Positions 1 to 20,306 of a stretch of 21,493 bases of DNA are shown one piece after another (position 1 is the stretch's first letter; the number at the start of each line of letters is the position of its first letter). The notes beneath the pieces were generated by a model. That model was given only the letters and a program-made list of their open reading frames with translations. It searched no databases and had not been told where the DNA came from. The translations under genes and the position numbers were made by a program. This stretch comes from a virus, in IMG/VR virus record IMGVR_UViG_3300000116_000294, positions 1 through 21,493 of that record, one strand, 5' to 3'.

Positions 1-111
1 AGCTGCTTTATACGCTTTACTACCTTTACGAGCACTCTTTTCACCACGCTTTCTCTTAGCGTTAATATTATCCCATAGACCCTCTGTAAAGTATTCTTTA
101 AATGGTTTCAT
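1..111 (-). CDS. Small basic phage protein, 3'-truncated by window edge
   Basis: The 37 visible codons start at an ATG (109-111) that overlaps the TGA of the upstream gene as ATGA, a translational-coupling arrangement. The peptide begins MKPFKEYFTEG, then LWDNINAKRKRGEKSARKG. The first ten residues fit the T4 internal-protein capsid-targeting peptide (T4 IPI begins MKTYQEFIAE), with a possible head-protease cleavage after Glu10 (F-T-E|G). The following LWDN-x-x-AKRKRGE stretch is strongly basic and looks DNA- or RNA-binding. I have a general impression of similar LWDNI-AKRKRGE proteins in marine phages but know no function. The gene continues left of the window, so length and C terminus are unknown. 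Being a real gene is well supported by the coupled start; the role is inference. Confidence 0.7.
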   Translation of the reverse strand, partial: MKPFKEYFTEGLWDNINAKRKRGEKSARKGSKAYKAA

Positions 112-1322
112 TTTCTTGTGCTTGTTTGGCCTCCGCTAAAGTTAGCTCTACTAAATTCCAATCTATCGACGAGCTTAACAGCACCACCAGCCTTACTAAC
201 GGCAACATAACCTTCTGGTGCAGTAACCTTTAAGGTACCATCTTCATTATCTAAAAAATGTTTAGTGTTGTAAGTAGCATTGTTATATTTGTTAACAAAA
301 ATCTGTTTAGCTTGTGATAGCAAACGACTCACCTTAAAGATATTAACTATATTATCTTTTGACTGTTGAACTTCTGCTAACTTCTTTTTAAAGCTTTCTT
401 CTACCTTAAGCTTTCCAGCTTTTGACTTACGCTTTTCAATTTCCTTAGTCATTCTCGACTTAAACCAATCAACAAACCCGTTAAATGACATTTCTGCATC
501 CTCTAAGAACTTACCTTGCTGTATTTCAGAGTTAACATATATGTTCATTAGATCTAAAGGTAAGTCTTTATACTTTACCTTAATAGAGTCTGCTGTTTTA
601 ACTAAATCTTTAACTTGTTTAGCTTCATCCTTAGTTAAAGTAACAGTTCCTGTAGTATCAGTAAAGACTGCATCGTCAACCCATACACCAGGTACCTTTT
701 TAAGACCTTTAACGTTAATACCATACTGTGGAGGACTATCTAAATCGTTATAACCAGTATGGAAAACAATACCAAACACGGAATTTGCTATTTCTTGACC
801 TAATTTAGAGTCTGTCTCTACAGCATACTTAATGGTGTTAGGTTTAAAGGTGTAGTGAGGTACTCCATCAATAGTCTCTTTACCAATCATAGAGGTATCA
901 AACATAAAGTCACCTTGAAGTATACCTTTAATACCCAACTTAGGTAAGTATTTGAGAGCTTTCTTTAACTTATCAGCTAACCCAGGTGCATGCCCATGAT
1001 TCATTTCAATATCATTGTCAGAATAGTTAATCTTAGGCTCTCTATTGAATATAGATTTTGTACCTACAAAGAACTTACCTGTATCAGGATGCTTTCCAGC
1101 AAATATAGCTGGAGCTCCATCCCATTTAACAGAAGTGTTAACTTTTCTCTTACTCTTACCTTGTAAATGTGAAAGTAAATCGGTAATAAACCCACGTGCC
1201 GTACCATAACCCGCTTCTCCCTTAGTGAGAATTAATTCTTCTAAGTGTGTTAGGTGTGTGTTAGCTTTAGTAGCTTCTTCTATGAGCTGATATTGCTCAA
1301 AATATAGTTTAAAGTTCTTCAT
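108..1322 (-). CDS. Putative nucleotidyltransferase/ligase-like phage protein (DUF6267-like)
   Basis: A 404-residue protein. It shows a set of motifs in the order of covalent nucleotidyltransferases (DNA/RNA ligases, capping enzymes): motif I K66-W-D-G, with K66 the candidate AMP/GMP-accepting lysine; a motif Ia/III-like VGTKS (86-90); a motif III/IIIa-like LQGDFMF (135-141); a motif IV-like EGYV (370-373); and a motif V-like VKLV (382-385), followed by DRLEFSRANF. Residues 225-360 are an insertion rich in Lys and Glu with helical character, larger than in small RNA ligases. The N terminus MKNFKLYFEQ...LIEEA resembles a T4 capsid-targeting peptide with an L-I-E cleavage site near residue 16. 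It starts 2 nt after the stop of the 514-residue gene, so the two are co-transcribed. I think this matches the uncharacterised family DUF6267; that name is from memory. Activity (ligase, capping-like or inactive fold) is not established. Confidence 0.75.
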   Translation of the reverse strand: MKNFKLYFEQYQLIEEATKANTHLTHLEELILTKGEAGYGTARGFITDLLSHLQGKSKRKVNTSVKWDGAPAIFAGKHPDTGKFFVGTKSIFNREPKINYSDNDIEMNHGHAPGLADKLKKALKYLPKLGIKGILQGDFMFDTSMIGKETIDGVPHYTFKPNTIKYAVETDSKLGQEIANSVFGIVFHTGYNDLDSPPQYGINVKGLKKVPGVWVDDAVFTDTTGTVTLTKDEAKQVKDLVKTADSIKVKYKDLPLDLMNIYVNSEIQQGKFLEDAEMSFNGFVDWFKSRMTKEIEKRKSKAGKLKVEESFKKKLAEVQQSKDNIVNIFKVSRLLSQAKQIFVNKYNNATYNTKHFLDNEDGTLKVTAPEGYVAVSKAGGAVKLVDRLEFSRANFSGGQTSTRK

Positions 1323-1324
1323 AA

Positions 1325-2869
1325 TTAATGTACTTCTATGTGAAATCCTTGATCATCTGGTCTAATACCGAAAAATAGATGTTTTTTGGCCATTAGTTTA
1401 ATTAACTCAATAGCTGGTGTATTAATAATAGTATCATATCTTATTGATGCTGCCGTACCATCAGGTTTGTATACCAGTAACCACTTAAAAGGTTCAATAT
1501 GAGTCATGTAGTGCTTAAGATGCCACCCTCCTACTAAGTTAGCAATTTTTTGTCTAGGCGAATCACCAGGTATTGTATCAATAACATCGGATACAGCACC
1601 TTTAGGTAACTCTGAATTAAATTTTACACTTTTCTTACCAAACGAAACACCAGAGTATTTCTCCAAAAACTCAGGCACACTCATATCCGCTAAAACACTT
1701 GTACTTGTACTTTTAAGTTTATTAGCTGCTATCTCAGAGGGTGGGTTCGGCAGGCGTTTCCATTTTTTTTCTATCGCAAACCAAGCGTCATGCTTAAACT
1801 CCGGATAAGCCTTATTTATATATTTCTGGAGTTCTTCTAGTTGGTCTAAAGAAAAAATAGTCTGCGCCTTATCCTTAAAATTTAAATCACTCGTAATATT
1901 ATCCGGGAGCGGCTTTCTTATATCTTTATATATAGTTTCACGCGCCTCTTCGCGTTCATCTGCTATTGATATATTTCGCTGACTTATACCTGGACTTTTA
2001 CCATAAAATAATTGCTCTAACGCTCTAACGCTAGCTGATTTAATACCTTTACCTATTCTACCTTCTTGTTTTTTGAGCTCAATACTATCTCTATCACCAG
2101 AAGATAATAAAATATCACCTGACCCTTGAGGCTTAACACCACCATATAGGAAAGCCAATAAAGCCTCACCAGGACCAGCTGCACCTCTAGTTGCTGCTAA
2201 ATCACTTGCTGGTCTCATTATTTGTAAAAATCTACCTACATCTGTATCTAAAGCAAAATAAATTTTGTTATCATTATTTTCTGGATCCATAGACGACCAT
2301 ATGTTAAATGTACCATCACCTGCAGAATCCAGGTAAGATACAAAGGCTTTTTGTAATTCACCAGATGATATAATACCAAGTATTCTAACAAGTTCCGCTT
2401 TTACTGTCCGAGCATTTACTTTTTTATTATTATTTTTAAGTGTCAATTTAGCACTATCTATTAAAAACTGTTGAATCTTTTTTAATGTTGAGTTAAAACT
2501 ACTAACAGGCTCATCAAAAATCGTAGCTTTATTAGCAATTTTCTCTATTACTTCTGATATAGTGCCCATATCAGCCATACTCTTAACCTCATCATAGGTA
2601 TCTTGGAGCTGCTTTTTAGTGAGTCTATCAGAACCTACCCACTTACCATCAATCTTCATGATCATCGGGTTCCTAGACGTACTTACCTTAGCAATATCTT
2701 TTAATTCACGTGCGTTTACATCAGATAACTCAATTTGTTCTGTTTTACCCTCGTCATATTCAATAGTAACCTTAGCCTCACCTACTACATGTAAATTTTT
2801 ATTATCAGGTACTTCTTTACCTCTTACCCGACCATATAAATCAGCTAAATCTTTTCTATTATAGTTCAT
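1325..2869 (-). CDS. Large hypothetical late protein with PD-(D/E)XK-like signature
   Basis: A 514-residue protein I do not recognise by name. The mid-region contains a plausible PD-(D/E)XK nuclease core: E235 in GPGEALLAF, D252 in GSGDILLSS, and E264-L-K266 in SIELKKQEGR, i.e. Asp-x11-Glu-x-Lys with a preceding helix Glu, the spacing typical of restriction-endonuclease folds. Conserved-looking surroundings include MRPASDLAATRGAAGPGE (218-235). The N-terminal 100 residues hold a short beta-rich segment (KVTIEYDEGKTEQIEL) and the C terminus (445-514) is mixed alpha/beta. The start overlaps the stop of the upstream 110-residue gene by 4 nt (ATGA), and the next gene follows after 2 nt, so it is a central member of the leftward unit. 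Unlike its neighbours it lacks a capsid-targeting-like N terminus (MNYNRKDLADLYG). A structural role is the alternative. Confidence 0.72.
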   Translation of the reverse strand: MNYNRKDLADLYGRVRGKEVPDNKNLHVVGEAKVTIEYDEGKTEQIELSDVNARELKDIAKVSTSRNPMIMKIDGKWVGSDRLTKKQLQDTYDEVKSMADMGTISEVIEKIANKATIFDEPVSSFNSTLKKIQQFLIDSAKLTLKNNNKKVNARTVKAELVRILGIISSGELQKAFVSYLDSAGDGTFNIWSSMDPENNDNKIYFALDTDVGRFLQIMRPASDLAATRGAAGPGEALLAFLYGGVKPQGSGDILLSSGDRDSIELKKQEGRIGKGIKSASVRALEQLFYGKSPGISQRNISIADEREEARETIYKDIRKPLPDNITSDLNFKDKAQTIFSLDQLEELQKYINKAYPEFKHDAWFAIEKKWKRLPNPPSEIAANKLKSTSTSVLADMSVPEFLEKYSGVSFGKKSVKFNSELPKGAVSDVIDTIPGDSPRQKIANLVGGWHLKHYMTHIEPFKWLLVYKPDGTAASIRYDTIINTPAIELIKLMAKKHLFFGIRPDDQGFHIEVH

Positions 2870-3198
2870 GAATTAATATCTGTAGTTAAACCTAACGATC
2901 TTTTAGTATCGACTGGGCTTATTTCAAGCATATTTTTTATATTCTCTAGAACATCTTTTGGTCTATCTCTTAAAAGTGTAGCCTGTAGCTCCTTAACAAT
3001 GTTAGCTTCAGTTTCATCAGGCTTATGTAAGAAAGCTTTTATTACTAACTCAATAAGAAACCTTTCTCCTTCTGAAGTAAGTACTTCAGGTTCAGGTGCA
3101 GGTGGCTGTTCGGCAGCATCAGTAGCATCTACAGGCTCTTGCTCATCTTGCTCGATGAGTGCCTTCATATATTTTTCGAATAATCTATTAGTTTTCAT
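2866..3198 (-). CDS. Small acidic hypothetical late protein
   Basis: A 110-residue protein of unknown function. Residues 1-17 (MKTNRLFEKYMKALIEQ) form a short basic/amphipathic helix ending in L-I-E, resembling a capsid-targeting peptide with its protease site. Residues 17-42 are acidic and Pro/Ala-rich (EPVDATDAAEQPPAPEPE), probably a disordered linker. Residues 43-100 look helical, with ERFLIELVIKAFL and NIVKELQATLL. The start overlaps the previous stop by 4 nt and its own stop overlaps the next start by 4 nt, so translation is likely coupled. No enzymatic motif is visible. Small head-internal or assembly protein is an inference from the N terminus and context only. Confidence 0.68.
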   Translation of the reverse strand: MKTNRLFEKYMKALIEQDEQEPVDATDAAEQPPAPEPEVLTSEGERFLIELVIKAFLHKPDETEANIVKELQATLLRDRPKDVLENIKNMLEISPVDTKRSLGLTTDINS

Positions 3199-3602
3199 TG
3201 TGCTGCTTTTGTTAATGCTTGTTCAAGTTCTTTTGTAGCTTTCTGAAAAACAGGTATAGCCTTCTTGTTTACCTTCTCCCTATCCTTTACCGCTTTTTTT
3301 GCTGCTTGAGCACTAGTACCTAATATTTTTCCAGCTAAACCACCCGCACCACTTTTAGCTTTAGATGCTAGGTTACTAACAGCGCTATCTACATTATCCT
3401 TACTAGTCATTGCCAGCATTTCATTATCTTCTGACTCTCCGGTCATTTCCTCTTTAAACGCTTGAAAGTTGTCAAAAGCAAAATCACCACCTGTAATAGT
3501 GAACTGGTTCTCTACTCTACCGGATGGATCTGTTAAGGTCACAGTATATTCACCATGCTCTCCCGGTTGATTCTCTGCAATAAGCTTTAAAAACTTCTTC
3601 AT
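3195..3602 (-). CDS. Hypothetical late protein with internal-protein-like N terminus
   Basis: A 135-residue protein. It begins MKKFLKLIAENQPG, closely matching the pattern of the T4 internal-protein targeting peptide, with I-A-E|N as a candidate prohead-protease site. Residues 15-50 are predicted beta (YTVTLTDPSGRVENQFTI), residues 70-105 are Ala/Gly/Ser/Lys-rich and low complexity (KAKSGAGGLAGKILG), and residues 105-135 are a basic helix. A late-promoter octamer CATAAATA lies 5 nt before the ATG (3608-3615), so this gene probably starts its own late transcript. It is followed, with 4-nt overlaps, by the 110- and 514-residue genes. The family is unknown; a head-internal or DNA-associated protein is the most economical guess. 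Confidence 0.7.
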   Translation of the reverse strand: MKKFLKLIAENQPGEHGEYTVTLTDPSGRVENQFTITGGDFAFDNFQAFKEEMTGESEDNEMLAMTSKDNVDSAVSNLASKAKSGAGGLAGKILGTSAQAAKKAVKDREKVNKKAIPVFQKATKELEQALTKAAQ

Positions 3603-3615: not shown

Positions 3616-4102
3616 GTAGAAGTGATAGTTTTATATTGATATTATTCATAAGTTCAGCCTCTAGTTGCTGTAACTCATATCTCTTCAAAAAATTACGAAA
3701 CTTACGGAAACTAACAGCTGATGCATCAACATTTGCGAAGGCTAAGTAATCTCTCTCGCTTAAAAACATCTTAAATGTATTATCTCCATACGTTATATTA
3801 GTGGGCAGTGCGTTAAATATACGCCTAACAAGTGTATTTTCTATCTTCTCATTGATTTGGTAGTAAAACCACTTCTTCTTACGGTCTTTTGAGCAAATAC
3901 TAATAAGCTTATTTGTAATAAAGTGTATACCAAGCTTATTCTTGTCTTTTCTACTGAGTTTTAGTTCATTCTCCGTAATATACCACGTATATTCATTGTA
4001 GGAGGCCTCTAGCAGTCGATTTAAGTTAATAAAAACATAACCTCTGACGTTATCTTCTTCTTTTTCCAATTCGAACGTTGATAATTCCATTGTAATACTC
4101 AT
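3611..4102 (-). CDS. Hypothetical protein, overlaps the GIY-YIG gene
   Basis: A 163-residue protein (159 if the Met codon at 4088-4090 is used). It contains YVFINLNRLLEAS, EYTWYITENELKLSRKD, KKWFYYQINEK and a C-terminal helix KFRNFLKRYELQQLEAELMNN. It is rich in aromatic and basic residues, with no catalytic motif that I can identify. Either start lies inside the 3' end of the upstream GIY-YIG gene, giving a 41-53 nt out-of-frame overlap; no later in-frame Met would remove the overlap without losing most of the protein. Its stop lies within the late-promoter element of the next gene. The order nuclease then unknown protein could be a two-gene unit, but no function follows from sequence. Confidence 0.65.
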   Translation of the reverse strand: MSITMELSTFELEKEEDNVRGYVFINLNRLLEASYNEYTWYITENELKLSRKDKNKLGIHFITNKLISICSKDRKKKWFYYQINEKIENTLVRRIFNALPTNITYGDNTFKMFLSERDYLAFANVDASAVSFRKFRNFLKRYELQQLEAELMNNINIKLSLLP

Positions 4103-4448
4103 CTTTTAGTAAAACCTCACGTTCTACCTGTAGCTTCATCTCATTATAAGAGAGTTCCCATTTACTATCACAACTTATAAGTATTTCAAACTTAAATTTA
4201 TCCTTACCAAGCTTAATTATGTCTTTATTTAGCTCATTTGATGAAGAAGTATAAGTTCTCCAATCAGTTTCAACGATTTGATGCCGTTTATTCTTTTTAC
4301 CCTTAAGAGGTGGTCGTTTACGTACTGATTGGCACTGCTTCTTACCAATATACTTACGATTATTAGTGAGATTCGTTATCTCGTATATAAAACCGTACGG
4401 AATAGTATCTTCTGTAAGCAATCCCTGCCAATGTCCTAGATCAGCCAT
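4050..4448 (-). CDS. GIY-YIG family endonuclease
   Basis: A 132-residue protein counted from the ATG at 4446-4448. That start overlaps the preceding stop as ATGGCTGA and is preferred over an upstream in-frame start at 4490 lying wholly inside the previous gene. The N-terminal GIY-YIG nuclease core is clear: PYGFIYEITNLTNNRKYIGKK (residues about 17-37) holds the GIY variant GFIY and YIG, followed by a basic segment (QSVRKRPPLKGKKNKRH) with the expected Arg. A C-terminal Glu (QVEREVLLKDEYYNG) and Asn (GIINVR) complete the usual metal-site and Asn positions. It is of the small stand-alone type found in phages as homing or host-DNA-degrading nucleases; it does not resemble T4 DenA beyond the fold. 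No separate DNA-binding module is visible, so the target is unknown. Confidence 0.85.
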   Translation of the reverse strand: MADLGHWQGLLTEDTIPYGFIYEITNLTNNRKYIGKKQCQSVRKRPPLKGKKNKRHQIVETDWRTYTSSSNELNKDIIKLGKDKFKFEILISCDSKWELSYNEMKLQVEREVLLKDEYYNGIINVRIGKRRR

Positions 4449-4818
4449 TGTTGATCTCGTAACAATTACAATGCTCACAATCCGGACCACATTTACACTC
4501 TTTTATCGGCATTCCACAACAAGCATCCGGACACATTCCCTCTTCATCTTCTTCTCCGGTTAAGAATACTCCATCTATACCCTTCTTCTTTTTATCTTTC
4601 TTTTTCTTAGATAATAACCACTTCTTGTTTGTACCCCTACCTAACATCTTTGGTCTTGCATCACCAGGTGCGTATGTATCTCCTGAGTTAATTTGACCAT
4701 CTGGATTAAAAATAGTACCACCTTGCGCCGATGCTCCAAGAGCTCCACCTCCGGTAGAAATATCCTCAGCTAGTAACTTAAAGAACCTCTCTTCAAATTT
4801 ACCTCTTGACTCTTGCAT
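4441..4818 (-). CDS. Late protein with Cys-rich C-terminal tail
   Basis: A 125-residue protein counted from the ATG at 4816-4818; the in-frame codons upstream lie beyond the late promoter and inside uvsY. It starts MQESRGKFEERFFKLLAEDIS, an amphipathic helix with an L-A-E|D site resembling a head-targeting peptide. A Gly-rich stretch (STGGGALGASAQGG), a lysine-rich stretch (LLSKKKKDKKKKG, about 68-80) and an acidic patch (GEEDEEG) follow. The last 30 residues contain eight cysteines (96-119: CPDACC, ECKCG, DCEHCNC), which suggests a small metal-binding knuckle. A perfect T4 late octamer TATAAATA lies 5 nt upstream, making this the first gene of the leftward late block. Function unknown. Confidence 0.72.
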   Translation of the reverse strand: MQESRGKFEERFFKLLAEDISTGGGALGASAQGGTIFNPDGQINSGDTYAPGDARPKMLGRGTNKKWLLSKKKKDKKKKGIDGVFLTGEEDEEGMCPDACCGMPIKECKCGPDCEHCNCYEINNG

Positions 4819-4833
4819 ATTTATATTTATACT
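4806..4833 (+). promoter_or_regulatory. Sigma70-like promoter of uvsY
   Basis: TTGACT (4806-4811), 16-nt spacer, TATACT (4828-4833); each box has one mismatch to consensus. The expected start point, 6-7 nt downstream, is at about 4840, the first base of the GTG start codon. The -10 overlaps the opposing late octamer (4824-4831). Confidence 0.7.
4824..4831 (-). promoter_or_regulatory. T4-type late promoter (TATAAATA)
   Basis: A perfect TATAAATA octamer on the minus strand, separated by 5 nt from the ATG of the Cys-rich-tail gene (4816-4818). In T4 this octamer occupies -13 to -6, so +1 would be the A of the ATG. It is a likely target of the gp55 encoded in this window. Confidence 0.7.
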
Positions 4834-13789: not shown

Positions 13790-14092
13790 ATGGCAGAATC
13801 AAGTTACTTAGATAGTCCAGCAGATGATGGTACTAACAAAGCACATCCAGCGTATTGGCGAGGCCGCGCACGTGGCACAGCAGAAATTTTAAAGATCATT
13901 AAGCGAGTTGCTGAAGGTAATGATCCCGGCGACGGTGAGATTAACTCTCCGGTTATTGAAGCTGCGCGCCGTATTCTTCTTACATATAGAGAAACACTCA
14001 TCCACGCTTCAGATAAATCAACATATTTATCGAAGCAAGCGCAAGAGGCTATTAAAGAGTGTGAAGAGTTAGCTAAGAAGATTGCTATTTAG
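13790..14092 (+). CDS. Small hypothetical protein downstream of gene 43
   Basis: A 100-residue protein from ATG 13790; an earlier in-frame TTG at 13757 lies inside gene 43 and is less likely. It contains an N-terminal KAHPAYWRGRARGTAEI motif and is otherwise helical (EAARRILLTYRETLI, QEAIKECEELAKKIAI). I do not recognise a family with known function. It is the last gene of the rightward replication block. Its TAG shares bases with the TAA of the convergent glycosyltransferase gene (14089-14092), and the apparent terminator lies about 55 nt further on, inside that gene. A replication-accessory role is only suggested by position. Confidence 0.7.
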   Translation: MAESSYLDSPADDGTNKAHPAYWRGRARGTAEILKIIKRVAEGNDPGDGEINSPVIEAARRILLTYRETLIHASDKSTYLSKQAQEAIKECEELAKKIAI

Positions 14093-15783
14093 TTTTCTCT
14101 TCTTTCTTCTGGCTGATAATGCTTTATGCGATCATGCCAGATAGGTGAGGCCAGCAATATTGCTGGTCTTATTTTTTCTTCTTTTGTAAGCTGATATATA
14201 TGTGACATCCATGTTTGTTCAAATGGATTAGCCCACGTGGTATCGATGAACATTTTTTTATTACCCTCTTTACTGACTATCATAGGCCAGTTCGCGTAAT
14301 AAATATCACCATCTATAAAAGATAATTCGTCTATAGTATTTATATTCTTAAATTCCGTAAGTGGTACATTTGGATCAAGTCCTGTCTCCGGTAATTTGTC
14401 ATATTCAGGCCAGAATTTTGTTCTTATATCTTGAGGTACATTATACCAGGAGCATTGCTTATCGTTATCAAAATAAACTTCTGTAAAAGACAACTTTAAG
14501 AAATCATATTTATGAGTTAGCATTATCTTATGAGTAATATTATACAAATCTGGTATATATTTCTTAAACCCATGTCTACAAAACTGACCCTCAAATTCAG
14601 GTGGGTTAGATGTCATATCATCCTCAAAGAAATACATAAAATCAGCATTGGATTTATCAAAATGTTCTGCTGCAGCCTGCCTACCTCCGCAAATTCCAGT
14701 ATTACCTTCTAAGCTAATATATTCAAAGTTATATTGTTGTGCAATTTCTCTATTTTTATTACGTGCTTCTTCATTAGTAGAATTATCCAATAACACTAAC
14801 GATGGTCTCTCTAACCATTCTGGTGTTTTTTTCATAGACTCAATAGTGTGTAGTACTTGTTCAGGAAAATTAAAAGTTAATATATATAGATTTGTCTTTA
14901 TGTTTCGCGCATCGTTATCTGTGGACTCGGTTATATAGTTATTTTCAACTTCACTAAATGTTACATTATTATCTCTTAAAGCTAGCGCAAATTTAACTAT
15001 ATGTCCAGTAATATCTAATTCAAACCGTTGATACAAACTAGGATCGAGATACGACATAACAGTAAAGATAGACTCTTCCGTACCCATTAAATCTTCGCTA
15101 CAAGCTCTATCAAGCAGAGTATAGTATGCCGCGTTAGCATTATTTATTTGTTGTCTCTTACCACCGAAAAGACCACCCCTACATACATACTTAACCTCCT
15201 GGCCAGCATAACTATTTAATGAGTTTATTTCAAATCCATGCACCTCAGGTCTTTTTTCATATGGATAACTTAAAAATAAAAACTTATCACAAACAGTAGT
15301 CAATTTTTCAAGTATATTCTCATTTACTAATAAGTGATAATCTACAGTATTTGTAATACCAGCATCTAACCAATAGAAGTAATCGGTATTAAATGGATTA
15401 AAGCATGTAGCATCATTTAATAAAAACATTTTAGATTGAACAATTGGATTATACCACATATTTGAGGCTTGAGGGGAATCTCTAAGCCAACTGGCGGAAT
15501 CTAGCCACACATCACTTGTTCTTATTTGTTGGGTTCTATCCCAAAACGGTTCATACAACCGCTTTAAGTCAGAAAGCTCCATTACATATACTGAGGTATT
15601 AGATTTATCTCTTTTCTCCCAAACAATATGTTCATATTCTTTTGGTATGTATATAAATAAATTTTGTGGTATATCTAGAAATCTTTTAAAGCATTCAATA
15701 TAATGATCGAAGTCTCTACCTAACCGGTTTATATTCCATAACCCGGTAACTATAGTCATATTTTTATCAATCTGTTGTTTCAT
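14089..15783 (-). CDS. Two-domain glycosyltransferase: HtrL_YibB-like + GT2
   Basis: A 564-residue fusion. Residues 10-280 match the bacterial HtrL/YibB family: TIVTGLWNINRLGRDF (10-25), FYWLDAGITN (136-145) and a RGGLFGGKR segment (202-210). Residues 296-560 form a GT-A/GT2-type domain: LYILTFNFPEQVLHTIESM, LVLLDNST (329-336), LEGNTGICGGRQAAAEH (358-374, the GN-x-G-x-GG-R nucleotide-sugar region) and the metal-binding FFEDDM (385-390). The ATG overlaps the upstream stop as ATGA, so it is the last gene of the five-gene leftward cassette. HtrL-type proteins occur in LPS core loci of enterobacteria, which supports surface-glycan chemistry, but the acceptor here is unknown. Confidence 0.85.
   Translation of the reverse strand: MKQQIDKNMTIVTGLWNINRLGRDFDHYIECFKRFLDIPQNLFIYIPKEYEHIVWEKRDKSNTSVYVMELSDLKRLYEPFWDRTQQIRTSDVWLDSASWLRDSPQASNMWYNPIVQSKMFLLNDATCFNPFNTDYFYWLDAGITNTVDYHLLVNENILEKLTTVCDKFLFLSYPYEKRPEVHGFEINSLNSYAGQEVKYVCRGGLFGGKRQQINNANAAYYTLLDRACSEDLMGTEESIFTVMSYLDPSLYQRFELDITGHIVKFALALRDNNVTFSEVENNYITESTDNDARNIKTNLYILTFNFPEQVLHTIESMKKTPEWLERPSLVLLDNSTNEEARNKNREIAQQYNFEYISLEGNTGICGGRQAAAEHFDKSNADFMYFFEDDMTSNPPEFEGQFCRHGFKKYIPDLYNITHKIMLTHKYDFLKLSFTEVYFDNDKQCSWYNVPQDIRTKFWPEYDKLPETGLDPNVPLTEFKNINTIDELSFIDGDIYYANWPMIVSKEGNKKMFIDTTWANPFEQTWMSHIYQLTKEEKIRPAILLASPIWHDRIKHYQPEERREN
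14148..14178 (+). terminator. Rho-independent terminator of the rightward replication block, inside the convergent gene
   Basis: Stem AGGCCAGC (14148-14155), loop AATATT, GCTGGTCT (14162-14169) with one G-T pair, followed by a T-rich tract TATTTTTTC. The T-tract is on the plus-strand side only, so it serves the gene 43 unit. It lies in the 3' coding part of the HtrL/GT2 gene. Confidence 0.65.
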
Positions 15784-16961
15784 TTTGTATATTTTAAGAA
15801 CTCGTCTGGAACAAAAAACCGCTCTTCTACTTTTAACATTTCTGGATGTTGTGTACCTACGTGCATTGGACCATTCGCGTGTTTTAAAACAGGAAAACTA
15901 GTAACTCCTTTATTTTTATCCCACTTTTTAAAGGTGTTAAATTTTTTATTTTCAGGTTCATAAGGCATAATAATCATATCGATATTTTTAGAAAGGAAAT
16001 AATAAGAAAATAACACATCATCGGAATATGTTTTACCTAAAAAATCCGTAAAGAACTCATCCTTAAATAATTTTCTCTTATATGATACAGATTTATAGTG
16101 CTGTATTAATTTAGTAGTTAGAGGTTTTGTTACACTGACTATAAAGTGATTTCTATTATCATCATAATCTCGAGGATCATACACTCCTTCAGTTTTCGGT
16201 GCAATGCCTCCAGCTCCATCATAGCCACAAACACATTCTTTAAATCGTTCTTGATGTTTACGGTGCTCTTCTACCATTTTATTGTGATATATTAAATCAT
16301 CATCAACAACTAATATTATGGTTTCATCATTTAATACACGCTTTATTGTAGGTATCATTTTTGTTGAAGGTCCGATATCGTCTGTTCTAAAAATTTTGAG
16401 ATGCTCGTATCTTAGCTTAAATTTTTCTAACCACTCTGGTATTATGTATTTTTTGTTTGTAATCTTTGATATATATGGAACGTTAAAGTGCACTTCATAA
16501 TCAGTATCATCTTGCTCACATATTGAAACTAAAACAGCTGGTAAAGAATCTTCATGATCAAATTCTAACCTTTCTGGTACTGTAGTAAGTGTTACTATAA
16601 GAGATGGTTCAATGTGACTTCCATGAATCATTTTAATTTCTTTATAACCTTCATTATATTTAGAGTTTATTTCATTCTTTAATAAAACACGCTGACTATT
16701 ATACTCTCTTATCTTTATGGCACGACGACCTATTTCTTCTAACCCTAAAATATCCTCATTACCCTTCCGTATATCAGATTCATAATTCCATATCTTAGCA
16801 TTTATATCATACAGCTTATCAACGTATGATTTAATATCTTTATAGTTGTCAATTTCTTGCGACAAAGCATCAATCTCGTTATTATTATCAATAGATAGCC
16901 GTTCTTGTTTTAATTTACAGATGCTATATCTATCTACTATATCTCCTATTGCAATTTTCAT
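15780..16961 (-). CDS. DUF6165-like N-terminal domain fused to GT-A glycosyltransferase
   Basis: A 393-residue protein. Residues 1-115 (IGDIVDRYSICKLKQERL ... RVLLKNEINSKYNEGYKEIK) resemble the DUF6165-like domain found next to bacterial polysaccharide glycosyltransferases (family name from memory). Residues 119-390 are a GT-A-like domain: SLIVTLTTVPERL (120-132), DIGPSTKMIPTIK (195-207), an Asp-rich metal site VVDDDLIYH (218-226) and a late SDDVLFSYYF segment. The gene is separated from the GT25 gene by a 21-nt gap holding a TACAAT element, so it may have its own promoter; downstream it overlaps the HtrL-like gene by 4 nt. Donor and acceptor are not readable. Confidence 0.8.
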   Translation of the reverse strand: MKIAIGDIVDRYSICKLKQERLSIDNNNEIDALSQEIDNYKDIKSYVDKLYDINAKIWNYESDIRKGNEDILGLEEIGRRAIKIREYNSQRVLLKNEINSKYNEGYKEIKMIHGSHIEPSLIVTLTTVPERLEFDHEDSLPAVLVSICEQDDTDYEVHFNVPYISKITNKKYIIPEWLEKFKLRYEHLKIFRTDDIGPSTKMIPTIKRVLNDETIILVVDDDLIYHNKMVEEHRKHQERFKECVCGYDGAGGIAPKTEGVYDPRDYDDNRNHFIVSVTKPLTTKLIQHYKSVSYKRKLFKDEFFTDFLGKTYSDDVLFSYYFLSKNIDMIIMPYEPENKKFNTFKKWDKNKGVTSFPVLKHANGPMHVGTQHPEMLKVEERFFVPDEFLKYTK

Positions 16962-16969
16962 GTGTATAT

Positions 16970-16998
16970 ATTGTAAGTTTTTTTATTTATTAAGTAAA
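16970..16998 (-). promoter_or_regulatory. Candidate promoter of the DUF6165-like/GT gene
   Basis: On the minus strand TTTACT (16998-16993), 17-nt spacer, TACAAT (16975-16970), then 8 nt to the ATG at 16961. The -35 lies within the 3' end of the GT25 gene. AT-richness makes chance matches likely. Confidence 0.35.
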
Positions 16999-17765
16999 TA
17001 TTTTTTAATTTTTAAATTTTTATAGTCTATGCTTCCTTCAAAGCATCCCTTAATCCATATTTCGTGATCTACAAATTTATGATCTAAATCAGAATAAGAT
17101 GGTCCTTGAATAAAAATATTTGGAATAGTCATATAAACTTTTAAATCATTATTTAAAATAGGATCTGAGTGTGTATAATCTTTGCTAAATAATCTCCATG
17201 TCTTTTTGTTGTTTAGCTCTGAAATAAATAAATCAATAGGCCATAAGTATGTGCAATGCGTGTTTTCTTCATACTTTAAGTTATCAACAATAAATTTTGC
17301 ATACTTTAAAGAGCCTATATAAGCATGTGACATTACAGTTTTTTCTGGTCTTAAAAACATGTTTGAAATTTGTTTTACTGGTCCTTCCGGTCTAGTACCA
17401 AGCCATAATACGTCAGGTTTATGCTTTAAGAAGTCTTTTTTAATATGCTTTACTACTTTTTTTATATCTACTTCTTTACTTGAACATTTTTCCTGATCAG
17501 GGTATTGTGGTTCGTAAAAAACGTCTAATTTTATATCATCTTCTAAGTATAGAACATAATCCCAATTATTTTTAATTTGTAATTTAGCGATTTCAATATG
17601 TGAAAACGTACAACCATCGCGCTTTTTTATTGCATCAAATCGTTCAACACCCGTTATATTAGTACTCTTAAGAGTATTCCACACACTCTTTAATCTATCA
17701 TTCCTACTTTGTAAATTAATTACAAAACCTGCATCAGCTATTTTCTCACCATACCATTTTATCAT
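16983..17765 (-). CDS. GT25-like (LPS/collagen type) glycosyltransferase
   Basis: A 260-residue protein, the typical length for bacterial GT25 enzymes (LOS/LPS galactosyltransferases). Diagnostic motifs: FVINLQSRNDRL (14-25; family pattern vINL-x-R), FDAIKKRDGCTFSHIEIAK (43-61; family pattern GC-x-SH) and YVLYLEDDIKL (70-80; acidic metal site). The C-terminal half retains WLGTRPEG and SHAYIGS. It overlaps the upstream GlcNAc-transferase-like gene by 4 nt (ATGA). By eye this gene looks more AT-rich than the polymerase gene, with sampled lines of about 22-32% GC against 48% in one gene 43 line, hinting at separate acquisition; this is a spot check only. Confidence 0.85.
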   Translation of the reverse strand: MIKWYGEKIADAGFVINLQSRNDRLKSVWNTLKSTNITGVERFDAIKKRDGCTFSHIEIAKLQIKNNWDYVLYLEDDIKLDVFYEPQYPDQEKCSSKEVDIKKVVKHIKKDFLKHKPDVLWLGTRPEGPVKQISNMFLRPEKTVMSHAYIGSLKYAKFIVDNLKYEENTHCTYLWPIDLFISELNNKKTWRLFSKDYTHSDPILNNDLKVYMTIPNIFIQGPSYSDLDHKFVDHEIWIKGCFEGSIDYKNLKIKKYLLNK

Positions 17766-19048
17766 AATAAATCTTTTGTTAAAGGTTGTTCAAACTTTTC
17801 TGCCCACCCTCTATCTGATGAAACACCCCAAAATATTAATTTAGCCGGTAATTCGTTACTACAAAACATCTTTTCATAATGTATCGTAGTGCCCTTAGAG
17901 ATAAAATCATCTAATCGTTGATCGGTTATATATTCTTGATTTATACCTGTACCGTTTTTATCATCAAAAGATACTAATATACTCTCGTAATCATTTTCAG
18001 GAAGCATATCTTTTGTTATATTAATTAATTGGTAGTGTGATTTAATAAACGTATCTTCCCATTTCGTAAGACCATAATTATTTTGAATTGGGTTAGGTGC
18101 AAATTTATGGTCTATTGTATATTGTTGAAATGCTTTAAGTTTAAAGTTAATTCCTGCATATTTTTCATATTCAGTTAAACTACGAACATGTCCTAGATTA
18201 TAATCTCCTAAATCATGACCACTATCTTCCACTTCTAATAACTGACGTATTCTAGAACGTGCTATATCATTACCCTTCCACCATTGATCGTCACCTCTCT
18301 TGTGTTGATCATCCCAAACTAGCATCCCACTTCGTTCTTCTCTCATAGTAGCATGCCATATAACTACTTTATGTGGATGAAATAAATCATAACCATGAGT
18401 AAAAGATCTAACTGAAAGATTCAGTTCTTCACCGGCGAAGAAAATATTCGGATCGTGTCTAACTTCCTTGGCCCACTTATTAGTTCCGAATGCAAAATGA
18501 CCGCTTAAGAATCTTGCAGGTATAGGTGATTTAAGATCCTGCCAGTTGGGTATACCCCCAGGTCTAATAAAGATAGTTCCAAAAGGGTAGAAGCAACCTG
18601 CCAATGACATCCAAGGTTCCTTTACTCGTTCTTCCGGATCATTATATGGGTTATACATAGGTGAATAACCACCTATAATTGGGTTATAACCTTCGTTAAC
18701 TAATTCATCATGCCAAGATATTAAAGTACTATCCCAGTTTTTAGTAAATCTGTGATGAGAATCTAACTGACATACAAAATCTTCATCAGTAAGTAACTTT
18801 TCATTTATTAAAGCTCTAGCGTATGGTAGACCTTTAGCTTTTGTATAGTGTATTTTTTCTATTTTAAAGCGCTTATCATTTTCATATTCAGATAAATCAT
18901 CAAACCCATCATCTGGATTATATTGCAAGCAAATACCAAAGTGTATTCTTTCTGGAAACTCTGCATTTTCTAAAGCATCCTTTATTGTTGGTATTAACTC
19001 TGGATCTCTATAAGCGGGTAGATGAAGTAGAATAGTTCTTTTATCCAT
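17762..19048 (-). CDS. GlcNAc-transferase-like glycosyltransferase (GT60-like), copy B
   Basis: A 428-residue protein of the GlcNAc family, which includes the Dictyostelium Skp1 hydroxyproline GlcNAc transferase and bacterial/phage homologues. Motifs: LPAYRDPELIPTIKDAL (10-26), the metal-site-like CQLDSHHRF (93-101), HDPNIFFAGEE (198-208), VRSFTHGYDLFHPH (213-226), and GHVRSLTEYEKYAGINF in the C-terminal half. It is clearly a paralogue of the upstream 421-residue gene, sharing all these motifs in order. It overlaps that gene by 8 nt (ATGGATAA) and the GT25 gene by 4 nt. The family transfers GlcNAc in its characterised eukaryotic members; activity in phages is not known to me. Confidence 0.85.
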   Translation of the reverse strand: MDKRTILLHLPAYRDPELIPTIKDALENAEFPERIHFGICLQYNPDDGFDDLSEYENDKRFKIEKIHYTKAKGLPYARALINEKLLTDEDFVCQLDSHHRFTKNWDSTLISWHDELVNEGYNPIIGGYSPMYNPYNDPEERVKEPWMSLAGCFYPFGTIFIRPGGIPNWQDLKSPIPARFLSGHFAFGTNKWAKEVRHDPNIFFAGEELNLSVRSFTHGYDLFHPHKVVIWHATMREERSGMLVWDDQHKRGDDQWWKGNDIARSRIRQLLEVEDSGHDLGDYNLGHVRSLTEYEKYAGINFKLKAFQQYTIDHKFAPNPIQNNYGLTKWEDTFIKSHYQLINITKDMLPENDYESILVSFDDKNGTGINQEYITDQRLDDFISKGTTIHYEKMFCSNELPAKLIFWGVSSDRGWAEKFEQPLTKDLL

Positions 19049-20306
19049 TATTAATAACTCCTTCTATTCTATCTAGCCAACCATTCTTCTTGGACTGAGG
19101 CCAAACGATCCATTTATAAGGTAGCTCTTTGGTTGTAAACTCCCGCCAAATTTGATATGCATCTGTATCACTATTGTATGTATTTTTAATTTCCGTATCA
19201 GTTACATCCTTTCGGTACATTTCATTACCATCTTCATCCTCAAAAGCTAACGCCCAGAATATAAAATCTTCTTCACCGTTAAGACTGCTCTTATTTACAT
19301 CAACACAAAACTTAAACATGTTCAAGAAAGATTCATCATAACCCTTTTTAAGTGTAGGGTTAGGTGGGTAAAAATTATCGTGAGTGTATTGCTGAATACC
19401 CTTATCGCTAAAACGTATACCGGCATATTTTTCATAGTCATCTAAAGATCTTACTTCGCCTAAAATATGCTCACCCCCTTCATTAGATTGGAACTTCTCC
19501 CCGTTAATACCTAACAACTTTCTAACACGAGCATATGACTTCTTGTTAAGTCGTACCCATTGCTTGTGATCATCCCAGTGTTTTGAGCTACCGCTTCTGT
19601 GGTAATGGTGCCACATTATAGGAATATGCATGTGAAATAAATCATAACCATGAGTAAAGGCTCTAACAGCGATAGTTATTTCCTCACCGTGAAAATATAA
19701 TTTAGGATCATGCTGTACTTCCTTTGAAAACTTACCTAAAGTAAAGCAGAAGTGAGCAGAATAAAATCTCGCACGTACTGGGCCAGTGTGATCTTTCCAA
19801 TCAGGTATAGTTTCAGGTATAGTGTGTAATGGACCTTCTGGTGCGAACCGTTGATATCTTAATCTCCACGGCTCGTCAAGCTTTTCTTCTGTCTCTGGAT
19901 CATAAGATGGTAAGTATCCAGTAAGTAAAGGCTTCTTAACACCAGTTAATTGTAACGAGTAAAAAGTATTCTTAAGAATAGTATCCCAACCTTCTACAAA
20001 CCTATGATGTGAGTCTAATTGCAAAGTAAAATCTTCTTTTTTATATTTTTGTTGTATTAAGTTACGTGCCCAGCATGCTCCCTTAGATTTAGCAGCATCT
20101 AAATCAATAATAGTAAATCTATCATCAAGTAAATAGTCATCTAACTGATCCCACTCATCCTCTTTACTATGTTGCCAAGCAATACATATATGTAATGTTT
20201 TTGGCTCATCAGCTTTTTCTAACATATCTTTAAGAGTAGGTAAAAGTTCCTTATCTCTATACGCTGCTATTTGAACAAACACTGTCTTACCTTTATAAGG
20301 ACTCAT
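19041..20306 (-). CDS. GlcNAc-transferase-like glycosyltransferase (GT60-like), copy A
   Basis: A 421-residue protein and the first gene of the leftward glycosyltransferase cassette. Motifs: IAAYRDKELLPTLKDMLEKA (13-32), LQLDSHHRF (95-103), HDPKLYFHGEE (199-209), VRAFTHGYDLFHMH (214-227) and GEVRSLDDYEKYAGIRF. It is the tandem paralogue of the next gene; shared blocks align in the same order with little length change, so the pair probably arose by duplication. It starts at ATG 20304-20306, 11 nt after a TATACT element, facing away from the 116-residue gene; the 71-nt divergent gap probably holds both promoters. The acceptor could be hydroxylated virion protein or a surface glycan; the sequence does not decide. 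Confidence 0.85.
   Translation of the reverse strand: MSPYKGKTVFVQIAAYRDKELLPTLKDMLEKADEPKTLHICIAWQHSKEDEWDQLDDYLLDDRFTIIDLDAAKSKGACWARNLIQQKYKKEDFTLQLDSHHRFVEGWDTILKNTFYSLQLTGVKKPLLTGYLPSYDPETEEKLDEPWRLRYQRFAPEGPLHTIPETIPDWKDHTGPVRARFYSAHFCFTLGKFSKEVQHDPKLYFHGEEITIAVRAFTHGYDLFHMHIPIMWHHYHRSGSSKHWDDHKQWVRLNKKSYARVRKLLGINGEKFQSNEGGEHILGEVRSLDDYEKYAGIRFSDKGIQQYTHDNFYPPNPTLKKGYDESFLNMFKFCVDVNKSSLNGEEDFIFWALAFEDEDGNEMYRKDVTDTEIKNTYNSDTDAYQIWREFTTKELPYKWIVWPQSKKNGWLDRIEGVINNG

Follow-up and report, generated by a model that had tools for sequence, protein, structure and literature searches.

The open reading frame (ORF) at positions 108–1322 on the minus strand of IMG/VR virus record IMGVR_UViG_3300000116_000294, whose 21,493 bases made up the window analyzed here, very probably encodes a nucleotidyltransferase of the ligase superfamily, as judged from its motifs and its predicted fold. 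The 404-amino acid product, which starts at an ATG codon, matched Pfam PF19782 (DUF6267) with an E-value of 1.6e-96 and a score of 324 bits against a cut-off of 27, over profile positions 1–373 of 376. It is a member of phrog_455, annotated as of unknown function, and its cyanophage homologues carry the label T4-GC 71; our literature search found no paper in which DUF6267 was named. DUF6267 is a family with no assigned function, which we recognize here, from sequence comparison and structural modeling, as related to the RNA and DNA ligases but equipped with an additional block of helices. The gene set of the window was T4-like, with family matches to UvsY and a late sigma factor and with genes that by sequence resembled those of an UvsW-type helicase, gp47/46, DNA polymerase, and UvsX.

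A preliminary description, made from the DNA letters without database searches, had placed motifs I, III, IV, and V of the covalent nucleotidyltransferases in linear order at K66-W-D-G, LQGDFMF (residues 135–141), EGYV (370–373), and VKLV (382–385), and all four were found at these places. Conservation was followed in homologue sets of 15, then 65, and then 147 sequences. K66, D68, and G69 of motif I (1116–1127, on the minus strand like all features of this gene; predicted AMP-lysine site), together with K89 and D138, were identical in 147/147 homologues, and E370, G371, K383, and R387 were identical in the 144/144 that could be aligned at those positions. In the three short DUF6267 forms that did not align at motifs IV and V, the same residues were present by eye. 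K66 and E370, the two residues on which the preliminary proposal hinged, were accordingly conserved in every aligned homologue, and the invariance across the 147 sequences ruled out a chance motif match. D138 lies in the strand ILQGDFMFD (residues 134–142; 897–923), which was also a strand in the structural model; its assignment as the motif III residue is supported by the S-T4 homologue, which carries the canonical Glu (QGEF) where the others have Asp. The motif IIIa-like strand FGIVFHTGY (residues 183–191; 750–776), likewise a strand in the model, contained the invariant H188. From E370 of motif IV (E370-G-Y-V; 204–215) to K383 of motif V (V-K383-L-V-D-R387; 162–179) the spacing was 13 residues, equal to that from E227 to K240 of T4 Rnl1. 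An invariant HLTHLEE (1236–1256) was located N-terminal to the catalytic core, with H23 conserved in 145/145 homologues and H26 and E28 in 146/146. The characters of the superfamily found in the protein were thus a motif I K-x-D-G, a strand-borne acidic residue in motif III, a motif IV E-G, the first lysine of motif V, and the fold.

The AlphaFold2 model, built from 65 aligned sequences, had a predicted local distance difference test (pLDDT) score of 84.4 and a predicted template modeling (pTM) score of 0.80. When this model was compared with solved structures using VIA-align, all 50 best rows were covalent lysine nucleotidyltransferases (Z 6.0–9.4), with no unrelated folds among them, in agreement with the fold anticipated in the preliminary description. 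The top match was Naegleria RNA ligase (Z 9.4, 184 residues, 3.6 Å); other matches were a fungal tRNA ligase (Z 8.1), an RNA editing ligase (7.9), T4 Rnl1 (7.8), T4 Rnl2 (7.6), and an archaeal RNA ligase (7.5), and DNA ligases ranked below the RNA ligases (6.0–6.5). In a Foldseek search of BFVD, an Agrobacterium phage RNA ligase came after the DUF6267 relatives (E 7e-4). Profile comparison gave a divided result: hhalign paired E370 and K383 with E227 and K240 of T4 Rnl1 (E 0.025), but the remaining Rnl1 motifs were unaligned, in global mode too, and no sensible alignment with T4 Rnl2 was obtained.

Three observations weigh against the ligase assignment. Pfam and PDB sequence searches gave no link from the ORF to any ligase; plain Foldseek against the PDB listed T4 Rnl1 and Naegleria RNA ligase at its head with E-values above 0.1; and the second motif V lysine (K-x-K) was not found, position 385 being V or I with the invariant R387 two residues further on. 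K-x-K in motif V is usual in ATP ligases and is not taken as defining the superfamily. Although a single Z of 7–9 could reflect a common arrangement, the ligase fold is hard to explain away because 50 rows of one superfamily coincided with invariant motifs. A profile search against solved structures returned coiled-coil and ribosomal matches only, and a Pfam match to haloacid dehalogenase (HAD) hydrolases (residues 217–340, E 0.011) was rejected, being below the cut-off and mostly within the helical block.

The preliminary description had also noted more than 200 residues between motifs III and IV, including a charged helical stretch; the distance from D138 to E370 was 232 residues, and a charged helical stretch was present at about 288–320 in the model. 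According to the AlphaFold2 secondary structure, the predicted insertion (residues 231–347; 282–632) consists of five helices (231–246, 256–268, 276–297, 301–320, and 322–347) between the strand at 183–191 and motif IV. The motif III–IV gap was 232–250 residues in most relatives and 156–169 in short cyanophage forms, and the insertion was therefore regarded as a family feature trimmed in some members. The corresponding gaps are 68 residues in T4 Rnl1, 105 in T4 Rnl2, and 85 in Naegleria RNA ligase, the last derived from the mutant names E227 and E312. Since only 21 residues follow K383, an oligonucleotide-binding (OB) or C-terminal domain is absent.

On this sequence and model evidence, it is rather likely that the DUF6267 protein seals nucleic acid. 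The explanation that we favor, with measured confidence, is a divergent polynucleotide ligase fuelled by ATP or NAD+, which would be head-packaged in the clade of the window and would act with the products of neighboring genes. In such a reaction, a K66-AMP adduct would form from ATP or NAD+, the AMP would be passed to the 5'-phosphate end of a nucleic acid, and the end would then be sealed, while the five-helix insertion may hold the substrate in place of the OB or C-terminal domain. The closest folds, which are nick-sealing and tRNA-repair RNA ligases, would also suit an RNA-repair enzyme that mends tRNAs cut by host defense nucleases, and in some loci a kinase-like or HAD-phosphatase-like gene was found nearby. 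However, the kinase was present in 9/145 loci and the HAD protein in 15/145, and neither was clearly Pnkp-like; an end-healing set of kinase, HAD phosphatase, and ligase was accordingly rejected, and we consider tRNA repair a somewhat unlikely role.

The N-terminus of the protein, MKNFKLYFEQYQLIEE/A (residues 1–16; 1275–1322, the slash marking the predicted site of removal by the prohead protease), is a capsid-targeting-like leader resembling those of the T4 internal proteins IPI and IPII/III. Residues 1–21 were disordered in the model (pLDDT under 50). In most DUF6267 proteins a short leader of the kind MKFTEYLTE/A, MKNFRQFLTE/S, or MKNFKLYFEQYQLIEE/A stands directly ahead of the conserved core. 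Among cultured relatives, the copy of Methylophilales phage Melnitz starts with MINFSKYITE/D and that of Stenotrophomonas phage DLP_6 with MMKFTQFLAE/S. T4 IPII and IPIII start with MKTYQEFIAE/A and T4 IPI with MKTFKEFTSTTTPVSTITE/A (MKTFKEF..ITE/A). For IPIII, ten N-terminal residues are enough to have the protein incorporated, and proteolysis removes the propeptide (PMC9026906). A regular expression for the leader fitted 39/71 DUF6267 representatives; the share was 7.8% among the remaining ORFs of these loci, many of the matching ones encoding apparent head-targeted enzymes, and 2.6% among shuffled sequences. Several of the misses were near matches; the leader was truly absent from the proteins of cyanophages S-PM2, S-CRM01, S-SZBM1, S-H9-2, and P-SSM4, among others. 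Within longer fused proteins (loci L077, L079, and L083–L086) an [L/I]xE site was retained just before the DUF6267 core, as would be expected of a protease site. In annotated regions, leader-like starts were found in 4/17 virion proteins and 1/88 other proteins (p 0.002).

The leader pattern, the likeness to the T4 internal proteins, the association of leaders with virion proteins, and the virion reports of the protein encoded directly downstream lend indirect support to the head packaging that the preliminary description had raised as a possibility, and packaging of the DUF6267 protein by the clade of the window is, on this evidence, likely. The T4-like leader would bring the protein of this clade into the prohead, the prohead protease would cut after ...LIEE, and the mature enzyme would enter the host with the DNA, where it might seal the incoming genome or repair host-inflicted nicks, as the preliminary description had suggested. 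Against packaging stand three points: the regular expression was written from T4 proteins with DUF6267 sequences already in view; the association with virion proteins involved few proteins from selected regions; and the DUF6267 copies SSCSM1_257, SSZBM1_141, and SCREM2_gp87 were not among the detected or noted virion proteins of S-SCSM1, S-SZBM1, and S-CREM2, respectively. These three copies were all leaderless, and no virion proteome of a leader-bearing DUF6267 phage was found in the literature. Tandem matches to the late-promoter sequence TATAAATA occurred at 4818–4831 on the minus strand, but the number of such matches in the window was that expected by chance, and late expression, which had been part of the preliminary description, is therefore not claimed. 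Some leader-bearing T4 head proteins have no known enzyme activity (PMC9026906), and the protein could in principle have lost catalysis and serve as an internal head protein or scaffold that retains the fold; the invariance of the active-site residues among members less than 40% identical makes this highly improbable.

By tblastn, DUF6267 was detected in 465–468 phage records, almost all from T4-like phages of Synechococcus, Prochlorococcus, Pelagibacter, and Methylophilales. A strict UvsX search returned 474 records, and the counts per organism name nearly matched those of DUF6267; on this comparison of counts, the DUF6267 gene comes close to UvsX in frequency among Kyanoviridae-type phages. 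Matches in a cellular genome collection were mostly on contigs of metagenome-assembled genomes, which are probably phage. The S-PM2 record AJ630128 (L150:3989–5768) splits DUF6267 into two annotated ORFs, of which the second is fused to a cytidylyltransferase domain. In the other S-PM2 record, LN828717, the match was continuous, and a single 591-amino acid protein stands in BFVD (A0A0M6VVW4); the split may be a frameshift or a sequencing difference.

The preliminary description had assumed that T4-like phages come with classical DNA and RNA ligases of their own; for the DUF6267 phages this premise did not hold. PF01068 was found in 2/19 DUF6267 phage genomes (S-CRM01 and DLP_6), leaving 17/19 with no match to the DNA ligase families; PF01653 and the RNA_ligase family PF09414 were each found in 0/19, and PF09511 in 0/9 tested. 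In the T4 control, PF01068, PF09414, and PF09511 were present and DUF6267 was absent. A 2010 review stated that g30 homologues were not found in cyanomyoviruses, leaving unrecognized distant homologues possible (PMC2984593), and the relevant passage of a survey of RNA ligases in jumbo phages lists Rnl1 and Rnl2 besides rare divergent forms and describes no DUF6267-like family (PMC7824862). Since DUF6267 phages mostly lack classical ligases, the DUF6267 protein could be the principal ligase they have and not an additional one. Its frequency near that of UvsX, the scarcity of recognized DNA ligases in the same genomes, and the leaderless cyanophage copies missing from virion lists would all fit an enzyme that fills the place of the missing DNA ligase, serving intracellular replication and repair with packaging secondary or absent. 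We regard this as possible but doubtful: S-CRM01 and DLP_6 have a DNA ligase besides DUF6267, the best structural matches were RNA and not DNA ligases, the OB domain is absent, and host LigA could serve.

The gene downstream of DUF6267 was cut by the contig end, and only its 5' end remained in the window (1–111, minus strand). This ORF begins with MKPFKEYFTEGLWDNINAKRKRGEK, comprising the leader MKPFKEYFTE/G and then GLWDNINAKRKRGEK, and corresponds to the start of the same gene as L001:1273–2034; near relatives continue into a HIGH-type domain like that of nicotinamide mononucleotide (NMN) adenylyltransferases (NMNATs). In locus L001, which was 98% identical over DUF6267, the partner at 1273–2034 encodes 253 amino acids with the leader MKSFKEYFTE/G, and its best NCBIfam and PDB matches were NMNATs, below the cut-off. 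Neighbors counted with a core profile included a HIGH-type nucleotidyltransferase in 101/144 DUF6267 loci, with a fusion of the two in 12; in much of the clade of the window this gene starts within the 3' end of the DUF6267 gene. Virion preparations of S-SM1 (PMC3037559), S-SCSM1 (PMC9602691 and record notes), S-SZBM1 (PMC9146016), and S-CREM2 (PMC10665884) were reported to contain this neighbor, T4-GC 190 (annotated as a cytidylyltransferase or NMNAT), or its relatives, with possible co-purification mentioned by the authors for S-SCSM1 and S-CREM2. The NMNAT-like protein had a leader-like start in S-SCSM1, S-SZBM1, and S-CREM2. The DUF6267 protein also deviates consistently from canonical ligases at two places, having D in motif III and K-x-V in motif V. 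These deviations, the linkage to the NMNAT-like gene and to other leader-bearing enzymes, and the lack of a recognized nucleic-acid-binding domain would be compatible with a nucleotidyltransferase that is injected for host takeover, like T4 Alt, and acts on another target, by AMPylating proteins, capping 5' ends, or modifying a small molecule. Such a role is unlikely, the structural rows being ligases and not other nucleotidyltransferases.

The upstream gene (1325–2869, minus strand; 514 amino acids) looks like that of a rapidly diverging PD-(D/E)XK nuclease. Across 17 upstream proteins sharing about 20% identity, nothing was invariant except three Gly and the residues E235, D252, E264, and K266, which give the E..D..ExK active-site pattern of PD-(D/E)XK nucleases. 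The derived pattern, drawn partly from the same sequences, fitted 69/105 upstream genes and 27/466 others. The AlphaFold2 model was of low confidence (pLDDT 53), with weak alignments to HhaI (Z 3.9) and HinP1I (Z 3.5). The upstream genes were conserved in position yet diverged fast. At about 55 loci (L003, L038, L015, L052, and others) and in the window gene, the N-terminal 25–30 residues were near-constant (MQWSLEDIYKKQVRGNIPPRKHL and similar), and the remainder was often hardly alignable, as in polymorphic effectors, here with a PD-(D/E)XK site.

It is about an even question whether the DUF6267, NMNAT-like, and nuclease-like genes work together. In the ligase reading that we favor, the enzyme would act with its immediate neighbors, the NMNAT-like nucleotidyltransferase, which may remake NAD+, and the PD-(D/E)XK nuclease; the NAD+ idea is speculative because it is based on the NMNAT link only. 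A further-reaching and improbable version is that the three adjacent genes of these marine T4-like phages make up one cut-and-seal set carried in the head, in which a rapidly diversifying restriction-type nuclease would be joined by a new NAD+-using ligase with a helical substrate clamp and by an NMNAT recycling the released NMN to NAD+. This set would either be injected along with the genome or function inside the cell, replacing the missing g30 ligase and perhaps missing functions of host-DNA degradation.

Three small proteins were encoded elsewhere in the minus-strand cluster, as judged from sequence: an acidic protein with a weak leader-like start, MKTNRLFEKYMKALIEQ, and no family match (2866–3198), a protein with the leader-like start MKKFLKLIAE/N (3195–3602), and the product of the first gene of the cluster, with the probable start MQESRGKFEERFFKLLAE/D (4441–4818). 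A SegE-type GIY-YIG homing endonuclease (4050–4490, minus strand) was located inside this cluster of leader-bearing genes. A retropepsin/RimB-like small protein with the leader MKTFLQYIEE/KSVLGLIEFF was encoded at L001:2488–2928 and at the same place in 44 loci, one or two genes downstream of DUF6267 in the clade of the window. Leader-bearing P-loop kinases (zeta/AAA_33 and adenylate kinase) and HAD-like phosphatases were found near DUF6267 in L093, L123, L148, L141, L103, L131, L098, and L117. These genes suggest that the phages concerned carry a set of head-targeted enzymes. In S-CRM01, a kinase-like protein starting with MISFDQFLSE/K was encoded two genes downstream of DUF6267 (L151:5670–8135), and a putative protein kinase of S-CRM01 was found in virions according to a later paper (PMC10665884). 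A stretch of five large genes (14089–20306, minus strand), flanked by the polymerase region and the UvsX region, looked glycosyltransferase- or sugar-related by eye.

These results provide a candidate enzyme identity for a gene that almost every member of one of the most abundant families of marine phages possesses. Should the leader function as it does in T4, the protein would be an injected ligase, of which we know of no prior description, and its link with the NMNAT-like virion protein may account for the presence of the latter in cyanophage virions. The identification further bears on the apparent lack of a T4 DNA ligase in cyanomyoviruses (PMC2984593).

Compared with T4 Rnl1, T4 Rnl2, and Naegleria RNA ligase, the DUF6267 protein has the same motifs I, III, IV, and V in the same order, and these enzymes gave the best structural matches (Z 7.6–9.4); with T4 Rnl1 it also has the motif IV–V spacing of 13 in common. 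Like DUF6267, T4 Rnl1 and Rnl2 have no OB domain after motif V. In contrast to Rnl1 and Rnl2, DUF6267 showed no PF09511 or PF09414 match, and it differs from all three RNA ligases in the Asp of motif III, the K-x-V of motif V, an invariant N-terminal HxxHxE, about 130–165 more residues between motifs III and IV, and almost nothing past motif V. The superfamily fold is common to T4 gp30-type ATP DNA ligases and bacterial NAD+ DNA ligases (Z 6.0–6.5 to DNA ligases), whereas DUF6267 has neither an OB domain nor a match to PF01068 or to PF01653, the family that includes the NMN-binding Ia domain. With T4 IPI–III and Alt it shares a short N-terminal leader, which in IPI–III has [L/I]xE as its last residues, ahead of the mature protein; the mature DUF6267 protein is, however, unrelated to these and is a putative component of the virion. 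By profile, DUF6267 falls outside the Rnl1, Rnl2, ATP DNA ligase, and NAD+ DNA ligase families, yet it probably works like them.
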